Assembly (NCBI RefSeq): GCF_017872555.1
Contig: NZ_JAEDOX010000003.1
Span: forward strand, 1-64,000
Direction of reading: 5' to 3'
Length of the DNA: 64,000 nucleotides
Origin: Ruegeria sp. HKCCSA071
Lineage (GTDB): Bacteria; Pseudomonadota; Alphaproteobacteria; Rhodobacterales; Rhodobacteraceae
Shown here: positions 27,217 through 63,382 of the stretch, in pieces
Layout of the letters: each line of letters begins with the position of its first letter
How positions within the stretch are numbered: position 1 is the first letter of the stretch
The notes under the pieces: generated by a model
Databases searched by the model: none
The model's input: the letters and a program-made list of their open reading frames with translations, nothing else
What the model was told of the DNA's origin: nothing
Program-made: the position numbers and the translations under genes

Positions 27217-27544
27217 GGTGTGGTTTCGGCGGTTGACCCGCAGACCCGAAGGTAGCGAACGGCCAGAACCCAACGGCGCAAGCGCAGATACAACCGCCAA
27301 ACCAACCCCGCCCCGTAGGGCGGGCTTCAGCCCGCCACCGGACACAGCCGATCCATGCGCGGTGGATTGGGGTTGGAGAAATGGGGGAGTGGTGGATTGG
27401 CGGGCTGAAGCCCGCCCTACGGGTGGTCGATGAAACCGAAGAGGGGCGCAAACGCGCCGCCCGTTTTGCCGGAGGCAAACCTTCGGTTTGACGGGGGCGG
27501 GTCGGCGCGGCCCGGCGGTGCCGCCGGGCGGGTGGGTTGGCGAA
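27217..27544. other. Repeat-rich intergenic region
   Basis: 328 bp of GC-rich DNA with no gene. It contains a large inverted pair (27312-27423, annotated separately), a CAAAC-cttcg-GTTTG hairpin near 27478-27491, and CCCGGCGG-tg-CCGCCGGG near 27510-27529. The density of hairpins marks a junction between core DNA and the AT-rich module that follows. Confidence 0.6.
27312..27423. repeat. Inverted palindromic repeat pair (GGGCTGAAGCCC family)
   Basis: A 26-bp arm at 27312-27337 is exactly inverted at 27398-27423. Each arm is itself palindromic around GGGCTTCAGCCC / GGGCTGAAGCCC and carries a GTAGGG / CCCTAC edge. The spacer of 60 bp has no homology I recognise. The same core occurs at 32021 and inside valS at 61437 and 61483. 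Confidence 0.85.
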
Positions 27545-30884: not shown

Positions 30885-32015
30885 GTGGAGAACGACAGCA
30901 ACCTGAACCTGAGCAAAGAAACAATTGAGGCATGGCAGCTGAACGCCAGCGAATCCGTATTGCGCGATGTACTGCGCCGAAATGCCGTGAGATCAGTACC
31001 AGCCGCGACCAGTATTGCCACCCGACTGGCGGACAAAAAAAATGTGCAACGCTTACGCGCTTTCCTATGCGCCTATCTCAACCTGCTTGTCAGTGCCGTC
31101 GGAGCCCCGGAAGCACACGCACTCGTTCCCCTGAAGCCGCGGCGCGACGAATTTGATCGTGTCGCCAAAGAAGAATCCGGCGAGTTCGACTTTCGGTTCG
31201 GAGTATTGCGGGAAACGGTCTCGGGGCTGACAGGCGAACGTGAACTAAATTCCTGCAGCCGAGCGTCCATCTACAGGCTGAACAGTTATTTTCGAGGGGC
31301 CGCCGGTGCAGATGGCGAATTACGAGGAGACGCTACACGTCTGCTTCATCGCGCGGTCAAGGACGATTTCTCTGCCGAAGACCCTTTCGTCTTGAAATTG
31401 TGGTCTGAAGAAAACCCATTTGCATCATGGCGTGCCAATCGATTGATGACGATCATCACTCATGAGTTTGGCACTGATTGGTTTCGGGAATGGTACTCGG
31501 GGTTCCTTGTTGGTCGCCCGTTGGATTGGGATCAACAACTCCGGGTGGCACAAATCGACGACGCCGTGTGGAACATTGGTCCAAGAGCGGTGGCGGATGC
31601 AATTGAACGCATTCGTGCTCGATTTCAGGTCGAGAAAGCCTTGGCGGACCTGGGTAGAAGCTTGACAGTCCAAACCTCAGCACGCCACGGCATCGGGGGG
31701 AACAACCCTCCTGAGAGCATCGAAGATGAACGTTTGTCCGGCGCGATAACCTTGATCTGGGAAGCGACCGAAGAACTCTCGACGGCTTTGGAAGAGGAAC
31801 GCCCTGCTCGCGAGCGGATTGAAGCAATTCTGGGCAAGTTCAAATCTGGATTGGCAGGATTTCTCAAATGGTGTGCAGGCAAAGGCGATCTTGCGGTCGA
31901 TACTTTGATCAAGTGGGGAATTCCTGCGACAGGAGCAGGGTATGCTGCAAAGTATCCAGAGAAAATTGAAGCGTTGATCAAAGCCATCGAAGACTGGCTG
32001 CCGTACTTGCACTGA
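30885..32015 (+). CDS. Hypothetical accessory protein with [10 protein letters not shown] motif
   Basis: About 376 residues. Start uncertain: GTG at 30885 with AAGG upstream is preferred; an in-frame ATG at 30831 lies inside lepA on the opposite strand. The N-terminal half is helical. The middle has [20 protein letters not shown] and [37 protein letters not shown] acts as a hinge, then a helical tail ends in a mildly hydrophobic [20 protein letters not shown] segment. I have seen the [10 protein letters not shown] hinge in hypothetical proteins of mobile regions; no function known. GC content is lower than in core genes, and a palindromic repeat follows 5 nt after the stop. Confidence 0.65.
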
Positions 32016-32020
32016 CCAAT

Positions 32021-32045
32021 GCCGGGCTGAAGCCCGGCCTACGGG
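32021..32045 (+). repeat. Palindromic repeat, GGGCTGAAGCCC family
   Basis: GCCGGGCTGAAGCCCGGC (32021-32038) is a perfect palindrome followed by CTACGGG. The core and the CTACGGG edge match the arms at 27312-27423. It lies just past the accessory gene's stop codon, where it could also act as a 3' stabiliser. Confidence 0.8.
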
Positions 32046-60199: not shown

Positions 60200-63100
60200 A
60201 TGGCGATGGAAAAGACATTCAACGCGGCCGAGGCCGAGGCCCGTATCTATGAGGCCTGGGAACAGGCCGGAGCCTTCAAGGCAGGCGCGAACCGTTCGCG
60301 CGAGGAAAGCTTTACCATCATGATCCCGCCGCCCAACGTGACGGGCGCGCTGCATGTGGGTCATGCGTTCAACAACACGTTGCAGGATATCCTGATCCGC
60401 TGGCACCGGATGCGGGGCTTTGACACGCTGTGGCAGCCCGGTCAGGACCACGCGGGCATCGCCACGCAGATGCAGGTGGAAAAGATGCTGGCGGCGCAGG
60501 GTAACGAAGGTCGGCGCGAGTTGGGACGCGAGAAATTCCTTGCGAAAGTCTGGGAGTGGAAGGGCGAATACGGCGGCACGATCATTGAACAACTCAAGCG
60601 TCTGGGCGCCAGCTGCGACTGGTCGCGCAATGCCTTTACCATGGCGGGCGCACCAGGTGACCCACGCACCGGGCACGAAAACTCACCCAACTTCCATGAT
60701 GCCGTTATCAAGGTCTTTGTCGACATGTACGAAAAGGGCCTGATCTATCGCGGTAAGCGACTGGTCAACTGGGACCCGCATTTCGAAACGGCGATTTCGG
60801 ACCTTGAGGTCGAGAATATTGAAACACCGGGCCACATGTGGCACTTCAAGTACCCCTTGGCGGGCGGCGAGACATATGAGTATTTGGAAAAAGATGAAGA
60901 TGGGAATGTGATCTTCCGCGAAGAGCGGGATTATATTTCCATTGCAACCACGCGGCCCGAAACCATGCTGGGCGACGGTGCTGTGGCCGTGCATCCGTCG
61001 GATGAGCGCTACGCGCCGATCGTCGGCAAACTGTGCGAAATCCCGGTTGGACCGAAAGAGCATCGCCGCCAGATCCCGATCATCACCGATGAGTATCCCG
61101 ATCCCGATTTCGGCTCGGGTGCGGTGAAGATCACCGGCGCGCATGACTTCAACGACAATATGGTCGCCAGGCGCGGCGGTATTCCCATGTACCGCCTGAT
61201 GGACACCAAGGGCGCGATGCGGGCTGATGGCGCGCCTTACGCCGAAGAGGCGGGCAAGGCGCAGGAATATGCGCGCGGCAAAGCGTTCACCGAGAATGAG
61301 ATCGACGCGATCAACCTGATCCCGGATCACCTGCGCGGACTGGACCGGTTCGAGGCGCGCGCCAAGGTGGTTGAAGAGATCACCAGCGAAGGTCTGGCTG
61401 TCATGTGTCCAGCGGACGATCCGCGTCTGGGATCAAGCCGGGCTGAAGCCCGGCCTACAGAGGACGATGACGGTGGGCAGGACTTCAGCCCGGCACTTGT
61501 CCCACTGGTCGAGAGCAAGCCGATCATGCAGCCCTTTGGCGACCGCTCGAAAGTCGTCATAGAGCCGATGTTCACCGACCAGTGGTTCGTGGACGCCGAA
61601 AAGGTCGTCGGCCCCGCACTGGATGCGGTCAGGGACGGCACGGTCAAGATCATCCCCGAGTCGGGCGAGAAGACCTATTACCACTGGCTGGAAAACATCG
61701 AGCCCTGGTGCATCTCGCGCCAGCTGTGGTGGGGGCACCAGATTCCGGTTTGGTATGGTCTCGACCTGTCAGCGGAAGACTTCATTGACGACGAGAATGA
61801 TGGCGACCTTGATCTGGTTGAATTGGGCCGGCTGCTGAACGAAGGCGGCATGCTGCACCGTGGCAATGTCATGGAATGTGCCGCGAGCTTTGAGGCCGTT
61901 ACCGAAAAGTTCCTGGACGACAATGCGGACACTCCCAGCCCTCTGAGCCACGCGACCGTGATCGAAGTCGCCGACAAGCAGGAGGCGATCCATCGGTTCG
62001 CCGAAAGCCTGGCGCAGTACGCCGTTGAACAAGATCCGACCAAGCTGGTTTACCCGGTGTGGCGCGACCCTGACGTGCTGGACACGTGGTTCTCCTCCGG
62101 CCTGTGGCCCATCGGCACGCTGGGCTGGCCCGAACAGACCGAAGAGTTGCAGCGCTACTTCCCCACGGACGTTCTGATCACCGGCTTCGACATCCTGTTC
62201 TTCTGGGTCGCCCGGATGATGATGATGCAACTGGCCGTGGTCGATCAGATCCCGTTCCACACCGTCTACCTGCACCAGCTCGTCCGCGACGAGAAGGGCA
62301 AGAAGATGTCCAAGACTACCGGCAACGTCATCGACCCGCTTGAAATCGTGGACGAATTCGGCGCCGACGCGCTGCGGTTCACCAACGCCTCGATGGCGGC
62401 GATTGGCGGCGTGCTGAAACTGTCGCGTGAACGCATCACCGGCTATCGCAACTTTGGTACCAAGCTTTGGAATGCCGTCCGCTTTGCCGAGATGAATGAG
62501 GTCTTTACCGACGCTGTGCCGCAGCTGGATGTGGCCGACCTGAAACCTAAGGCCGCCGTCAACCGCTGGATCATCGGCGAAACCGCCCGCGTGCGGGAAG
62601 AGGTCGACGCGGCGCTGGAAAGCTATCGCTTCAACGATGCCGCCAACGGGCTTTATGCCTTTGTCTGGGGCAAGGTCTGCGACTGGTACGTGGAACTGTC
62701 CAAACCGCTGCTGCAAGGCGACGACGCCGCGGCGCAGACCGAGACCCGCGCCACCATGCGCTGGGTTCTGGATCAGTGCATGGTCCTTCTGCACCCGATC
62801 ATGCCCTTCATCACCGAAGAGCTGTGGGGCCTGACCGGCAACCGCGCGAAAATGGTCGTCCACGCCGACTGGCCGACCTACGGCACCGAACTGGTCGACG
62901 CCGACGCGGATCGTGAAATGAACTGGGTGATCTCGGTGATCGAGAACACCCGCTCGGCCCGTGCCCAGATGCGGGTTCCTGCTGGCCTCTACGTACCGAT
63001 GCTGGTGACCGAGATCGACGCCAACGGCCAAGCCGCGTGGGACCGCAACGAGGCGCTGATCAAACGTCTGGCCCGCATCGACAGCCTGACCAGAGCAGAC

Positions 63101-63382
63101 ACGCTGCCCAAGGGCACCATCTCGATTGCCGCCCCCGGAGCCTCCTTCGGCCTGCCGCTGGCGGATATCATCGACATCGGCGCGGAAAAGGAGCGGCTGG
63201 AGAAAGCCAAGGGCAAGCTGGCCAAGGAACTGGGTGGCTTGCGCGGGCGTCTGAACAACCCCAAATTCGTGGCCTCGGCCCCGGAAGAGGTGGTCGAGGA
63301 AGCCAAAGCCAACCTCGCCGCCCGCGAGGAAGAAGAAGCCAAGCTGAACGAGGCGCTGGCCCGTCTGGCCGAGATCGCCTGA
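60200..63382 (+). CDS. valS: Valyl-tRNA synthetase, with an in-frame palindromic insert
   Basis: 1060 residues. HIGH motif as [20 protein letters not shown] near residue 51; KMSKS motif as [18 protein letters not shown] near residue 706; LWCISRQ-like [20 protein letters not shown]-terminal coiled-coil [19 protein letters not shown]. About 25 residues near 410-435 ([20 protein letters not shown] and neighbours) come from a palindromic repeat element, between [10 protein letters not shown] and [20 protein letters not shown] in the editing/linker region. The frame is kept, so the enzyme is presumably functional. Confidence 0.97.
61429..61503 (+). repeat. 75-bp palindromic element inside valS
   Basis: Arms GCCGGGCTGAAG (61437-61448) and CTTCAGCCCGGC (61483-61494) are exact inverse complements; the outer edges GGGATCAA and TTGTCCC also pair imperfectly. 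The left arm continues CCCGGCCTAC, matching the repeats at 27312-27423 and 32021-32045. Length 75 bp is a multiple of three and no stop is introduced, so it is translated. Confidence 0.85.

Follow-up and report, generated by a model that had tools for sequence, protein, structure and literature searches.

The valS gene of the window, by which we mean the whole 64,000-nucleotide stretch of DNA analysed here, carries a palindrome in frame within its intact coding sequence. This palindrome is a REPIN, a pair of inverted REPs tagged with GTAG, and its translation inside valyl-tRNA synthetase (ValRS) is well supported. Taking the genus and family comparisons together, it is very probable that the REPIN landed in a variable ValRS loop, kept the reading frame and encodes a probably functionless peptide, and that this loop has captured REPs repeatedly in the family. 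The recurrence at one loop is what lifts the valS REPIN above a curiosity.

The gene occupies 60200..63382 of the plus strand, encodes 1060 amino acids without interruption, and scores 1171 bits against the valine--tRNA ligase profile NF004349 (cut-off 704). A protein search of the genome returned it as the single full-length valS match. Outside the insert, valS is under strong constraint: between carriers, pS is 0.33-0.35 and pN 0.023-0.034, and the resulting pN/pS of about 0.07-0.10, together with the intact ORF, fits a working gene. The REPIN lies at 61437..61494 (plus strand), has a layout of 22+14+22 nt with the tails inside, and codes for valS residues about 413-432 (about 20 residues). 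Its left REP (61437..61458, minus strand) reads GCCGGGCTGAAGCCCGGCCTAC on the plus strand and is one of 18 exact copies of this 22-mer in the genome. The 14-nt spacer (61459..61472) is made of acidic codons. The right REP (61473..61494, plus strand) is decayed, with its core at 61480-61491 containing one mismatch and the whole unit carrying three substitutions relative to the copies in two sister genomes, G045 and G046, each of which alters an amino acid. Since both sister copies have the identical layout with both units perfect, the window copy is the decayed one.

The original prediction of a palindromic repeat translated in frame within valS, without a stop, therefore stands, with the 1060-codon frame intact, and the element is shorter than predicted (58 bp instead of 75 bp). 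Its exact outer arms are indeed 12 bp long in the window copy, as had been proposed, and reach 22 bp in the sister copies. What had been taken for imperfect outer edges of the element is host sequence that differs from the corresponding sequence in the two sister genomes.

The palindrome belongs to a family that is repeated well beyond this gene. Five occurrences of GGGCTGAAGCCC with at most one mismatch are found in the window, whereas 100 shuffled versions averaged 0.73 and never attained five. In the whole genome, GCCGGGCTGAAGCCCGGC occurs 18 times exactly and its reversed control not at all, and the reversed control of the 22-mer is likewise absent. The unit GTAGGCCGGGCTTCAGCCCGGC forms a palindromic hairpin about 20 nt long that bears GTAG at one of its ends, as is characteristic of GTAG-tagged REPs. 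The intergenic copies expected at 27312-27423 and 32021-32045 are real: the former comprises a GGCGGG variant (27315..27336, plus strand) and its partner (27399..27420, minus strand) in a head-to-head dimer, and the latter is a single exact 22-mer (32021..32042, minus strand) located 5 nt past an ORF ending at 32015. Exact 12-nt cores number 24 in the genome, one of which (C31:75681) has no tag and resembles ordinary coding sequence. Among the 23 tagged cores, four lie in genes with homologues (one in valS, one in a carboxylase gene and two in a RAYT gene), and the ORFs across the remaining tagged cores look, by inspection, like antisense, hypothetical or upstream-extended frames. The REPs of this genome are thus mostly extragenic. 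Dimers are also common, with 17 tail-to-tail pairs (including the two sister valS copies) and 15 head-to-head pairs in the loci read. The 15 other tail-to-tail dimers have spacers of 9 or 12-14 nt, and the three valS copies have spacers of 14 nt, consistent with the inverted, short-spacer arrangement of REPINs. None of the further dimers listed from the loci read has the spacer of the valS REPIN.

A potential source of mobility is encoded in the same genome. An intact RAYT gene of 199 amino acids (contig C26, 421-1017; 421-1041 in loci L014 and L374) was found with profile NF047646 (174.9 bits, cut-off 80) and by protein search. A REP dimer lies beside one end of it, with a gap of about 20 nt to the nearer unit; beyond the opposite end, the 1.8-kb locus contains no exact REP. 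Two further REPs lie inside the gene. RAYT matches are likewise present in both other carrier genomes, G045 and G046. A reading based on PF01797 (Y1_Tnp), according to which the genome has no REP transposase, was rejected on the strength of these matches; PF01797 gives the RAYT gene a weak E-value of 0.029. In a separate observation, 30 RAYT loci were read (L014, L374 and L375-L403), 24 of which have the frame between the HUH motif (PDHxH) and WQRRFWEH intact, and 18 of these 24 carry GTAG-REP hairpins in frame between the two motifs. REP copies are thus encoded by the gene for the RAYT transposase itself, and they may be what the enzyme acts on.

Comparisons within the genus reveal that the valS insert is a sporadic feature. 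All 54 genus genomes have a valS match (that of G046 is partial, at a contig end), and the insert is present in three, namely the window genome, G045 and G046 (the latter two 89% and 95% complete). The other 51 have two main forms of short, acidic, non-palindromic loop, no loop (G026 and G029) or a long unrelated one (G032). The REP thus lies wholly inside an ORF whose homologues mostly lack it, and neither of the outcomes that would have spoken against an insertion was observed: relatives do not generally have an equally long segment here, and the genome copies are beyond chance. The exact 22-mer is also commonest in the three carriers, with 18, 16 and 20 copies as compared to 0-12 in the other 51 genomes of the genus. 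On the genus tree, from which locus L083 was omitted, the three carriers require two changes, and a single origin may remain compatible with this tree. The unrelated insert of G032 (L081), about 60 residues at the same ValRS loop, has no strict GTAG hairpin. Elsewhere in the protein, residues ~520-620 of the window ValRS form a second segment with very different versions among species of this genus, a pattern resembling the exchange of entire segments.

The length of the loop indicates how the element was accommodated. Measured from anchor to anchor in 51 of the 54 genus rows, the segment is 62 amino acids long in the carriers and 54 or 52 in the two common non-carrier forms, a net gain of 8 or 10 residues instead of the roughly 25 anticipated, with the element itself encoding about 20. 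So small a gain means that part of the older loop was replaced, the 58-bp unit having displaced roughly 28-34 nt. Because the element replaced sequence instead of simply adding to it, a clean empty site with a target duplication is not demonstrable.

A search of the genome for further in-frame copies, as had been suggested, uncovered them in the RAYT gene and in an acyl-CoA carboxylase carboxyltransferase gene (PF01039; contig C11, 1168102-1168123 in L008, with loci L404-L416), which we take to be probably methylcrotonyl-CoA carboxylase beta. In 13 of the 54 genus genomes, this gene contains the REP or what is left of it after decay (two of the 13 copies are partly decayed), translated as AGLKPGL or a variant of that peptide. 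The 13 carriers and 17 non-carriers were read as DNA, and the other 24 non-carriers were assigned by match, being one codon shorter. Here too the REP took the place of an older loop and lengthened the gene by one codon net. The 13 carriers do not form one clade on the carboxylase tree, which requires five changes, at least two of them forced.

The small net change in length in both genes raises the alternative that no transposition was involved and that recombination or gene conversion assembled the REP from a segment of the loop that happened to resemble one. The REP core, CTGAAGCCC, is a possible spelling of the LKP codons in the older loop, and a non-carrier (L054) has GCTGAAGCCCG in register. 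However, the core is read in different frames in the two cases (LKP as opposed to AEA), the spacer length and the second arm match a whole REPIN unit, and no such core occurs in the older carboxylase loops that were read. We therefore regard this origin as improbable, even though it fares best among the alternatives to insertion of a REPIN.

Under the preferred reading, the inserted element, an inverted pair of GTAG-tagged REPs of a kind thought to be moved by RAYT proteins such as the one encoded in this genome, would have been transposed by RAYT. The REPIN would have landed in a length-variable ValRS loop following the editing (CP1) region, displacing part of that loop. Retention of the reading frame could be explained by the fact that four of the six reading frames of the REP unit are open, with frame-breaking events being eliminated in an essential gene. 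In an alignment to the solved chain 1gax, a valyl-tRNA synthetase (of Thermus thermophilus), the insert falls in an unaligned gap between chain residues 329 and 350, and the preceding stretch aligns weakly. We assume this position to be after the editing region of the ValRS fold. Judging from this gap and from the variation in length, the inserted segment is predicted to be a surface loop, which would be exposed and tolerant of insertion, and the inserted residues are probably functionless in themselves.

Substitution patterns within the insert bear on whether the sequence is retained for some other reason. Across its 20 codons, compared without gaps, pN is 0.044-0.131 and pS 0.068-0.138, implying that amino acid change is not restrained relative to silent change, although few codons are involved. 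Silent change is itself low within the insert, on small numbers. The sister copies of G045 and G046 agree at all 44 arm positions (44 of 44), whereas 3 of the 14 spacer positions have changed between them (p 0.012); this contrast is weak against the window copy (p 0.05 and 0.14). If real, it misfits a plain dead insertion. The carboxylase gene presents a similar picture: fourfold sites differ among the 13 carriers by 0.15 in the REP codons and by 0.43 in the rest of the gene, with the REP stretch and one overlapping window tying for the lowest value of 114 windows (it should be noted that these pairwise comparisons are non-independent). All 13 retain the CTA codon in which the GTAG tag lies, CTA being rare elsewhere in these genes (3% of leucine codons). 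Gene conversion from REP copies, the action of RAYT or selection for the hairpin could each account for the silent-site conservation in the carboxylase gene.

These observations form part of the case for a second alternative, in which the repeat is kept for a role at the DNA or RNA level, for example as an mRNA hairpin that slows ribosomes once the editing domain has been synthesised or as a RAYT or gyrase site. The predicted hairpins are strong, with the perfect 22-bp sister copies folding at -52.7 and -52.1 kcal/mol and the window copy at -39.4 kcal/mol (z -6.5 in the folding computation). The low silent change of the valS insert relative to the rest of that gene, along with the carboxylase fourfold sites and the retained CTA codon, points in the same direction. 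Yet 51 of the 54 genus genomes do without the valS insert, the right arm of the window copy has decayed through three amino acid changes, and gene conversion from other REPs would yield equal silent-site conservation in comparisons that are in any case non-independent. Such a role is improbable, and marginally more so than an origin by recombination.

To place the insert in a wider context, the same loop was surveyed in other genera of the family. Of 244 loci given to the loop reader, 235 were read, yielding 191 distinct loops (32.4 kb), and 36 of a further 40 loci were read, with one loop among these 40 already in the earlier set. Under a strict hairpin rule (GTAG, at most 1 nt, a perfect stem of at least 7 and a loop of 2-7), 19 GTAG sites occur in 14 of the 191 distinct loops. 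The rest of the same open frames (404.8 kb) contains four such sites, none of which lies within residues ~520-620, and 100 codon-order shuffles gave a mean of 0.04 sites and a maximum of one. With a looser hairpin rule, the loop again yielded 19 GTAG sites, and the remainder of the frames 12 (Fisher 2e-14). Two of the 36 further loci have a strict GTAG hairpin in the loop. In a sample of nearly one genome per genus, valS matches were obtained in 377 of 394 genomes, 142 of these were read at the loop, and 13 of the 142, counting the window genome, carry a strict site. Because the loci were taken by similarity to a query that contained a REP translation, the carrier fraction is inflated where REP types close to that of the query are concerned.

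Different genera have different inserted families, including GTAGGCCGGGC types, GTAGGGCGGGGTTCACCCCGCC and GTAGGGTGGGY types, in the form of one unit or two. The inserted type is clearly repeated in its own genome in 9 of the 12 other carrier genera that were tested (carriers G416 and G394 were left out). For example, 61, 27, 25 and 24 copies were counted in G073, Marivita sp. S6314 (G446), G385 and G400, respectively, each with a control of 0, and copies also exceed controls in G421 (75 vs 7), G380 (44 vs 7), G160 (19 vs 7), G439 (15 vs 3) and G170 (11 vs 0). The result is weak in G064 (10 vs 7). In G330 there is one GTAGGGTGGGY as against 12 control matches, and in G181 there are seven copies in all, with the exact type occurring once, in valS itself; neither of these two genomes has a RAYT match, although both carry a valS REP. 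The element of G380 (L121) is REP-like with a long inner loop and was missed by the strict rule; it is included in the own-genome, tree and length tests and lies outside the counts of 14 and 2. Segment length does not differ significantly between carriers and non-carriers across all genera (p 0.051; 13 carriers, with L121 in and L109 and L298 out, and 169 non-carriers).

Palindromes of other kinds, some tagged with CGTC, were noticed by eye in the same valS loop (L273, L277, L317, L347, L357, L446 and L452), translating for instance as AGLDPATS or PDQVRD. The CGTC-like types have 5-26 copies in five genomes, with controls of 1-4. They were excluded from the GTAG counts because the same count in two genomes without such a valS insert also gave copies above control (18 vs 6 and 10 vs 2).

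As similar repeats occupy the same stretch of the enzyme across several related genera, selfish DNA seems to have settled more than once in a single variable loop of ValRS. In the other genera of the family, this loop would have captured REPs repeatedly, in most tested cases of types that recur elsewhere in the genome concerned. Many carriers have the insert at a similar position, directly following the conserved DPRLG, which might instead point to a single ancient insertion in the ancestor of the family, rewritten by the REPs of each genome and lost in most lineages. On a 180-row tree of the loop flanks, however, the 15 carriers require 13 changes, at least six of which are forced by well-supported branches, as compared to an average of 14.6 changes when carrier labels are shuffled; support for this tree is thin, with 20 of 177 inner branches well supported. 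Marivita sp. S6314 is filled, whereas the five other Marivita rows compared have a uniform 59-amino-acid segment without a REP, and the REP families, their orientations and the use of single or double units vary. A single ancient insertion is thus very unlikely. That the palindrome is ordinary ValRS sequence or a chance product of a GC-rich, variable loop is practically out of the question, refuted as it is by 18 genome copies of an identical 22-mer (control 0) and by absence from 51 of the 54 genus genomes.

Repeated insertion into a tolerant loop hence remains our preferred reading. A more far-reaching version, which we would put forward as speculative and on present evidence rather doubtful, is that the ValRS loop is a family-wide landing place for REPs and that the valS, carboxylase and RAYT copies stay live members of the REP population, with their silent sites and GTAG tag held by gene conversion or RAYT action. 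If true, selfish DNA would be well protected inside an essential gene, since sloppy excision kills the host. With one site in one essential enzyme occupied on several occasions, the REP families and reading frames varying from case to case, and with empty relatives alongside, the system offers a replicated natural experiment in how selfish palindromes become protein. It makes testable whether RAYTs prefer such sites, whether the peptide is merely tolerated and why REPs within genes seemingly resist silent change.

The REPINs and RAYTs of Bertels and Rainey in 2011 and of related work are reportedly described as extragenic, whereas the valS and RAYT copies described here are translated. In other respects, the elements closely resemble the REPINs and RAYTs in the covered parts of Nunvar et al. 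2010 (PMC2817692) and PMC8049555, sharing an inverted REP pair, a short spacer and a RAYT gene beside REPs. The QMITEs of Coxiella burnetii are also short inverted-repeat elements, some of them in frame in ORFs, but they are a different element, described as a MITE, with no REP/RAYT layout seen in the portion of that paper covered (PMC5896051). None of the literature matches listed dealt with REPs of Ruegeria or with REPs inside valS.

The original prediction likened the insert to the Rickettsia palindromic elements (RPEs), a comparison that holds for inclusion in frame and fails for identity. As far as the source was covered, the R. japonica genome paper (PMC3767692) describes RPEs of 100-150 bp that are incorporated in frame into proteins, isoleucyl- and phenylalanyl-tRNA synthetases among them, and different RPE types at one locus across species, with the question of hotspots left open by its authors. 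RPE sequences of R. conorii end in CGTC, and CGTC repeats are described without association to transposase genes (PMC3733652, in the parts covered). The valS element, in contrast, is 58 bp long, GTAG-tagged and accompanied by a RAYT gene; it works like an RPE yet is none.

The closest precedent is that of the REP-decorated proteins of Di Nocera et al. 2013 (PMC3733652). In the parts of this paper covered, GTAG and CGTC REPs are reported inside ORFs of several species, with GTAG palindromes or dimers in known genes and intragenic REPs in tRNA synthetases of X. oryzae, E. litoralis and S. alaskensis; tolerance in loops is suggested, and the recB genes of X. campestris and X. oryzae contain different REPs at about the same site. 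Given these reports and those on RPEs in PMC3767692, as covered, in-frame REP events are of a known kind, described in 2013 with tRNA synthetases included, and the claim that no such event had been described for repeats of this kind must be abandoned. The words 'Ruegeria', 'Rhodobacter', 'valS' and 'valyl' do not occur in the main text of PMC3733652 as covered, the genes themselves being listed in its Additional file 3. Neither that main text nor the literature matches listed, a coverage to which the 2013 supplementary gene list does not belong, deal with a recurrent valS loop across a family, decorated RAYT genes or silent-site conservation. Relative to the covered parts of PMC3733652, the present case differs in that one loop has been struck in many genera, loop sequence has been replaced and the RAYT genes themselves are decorated.
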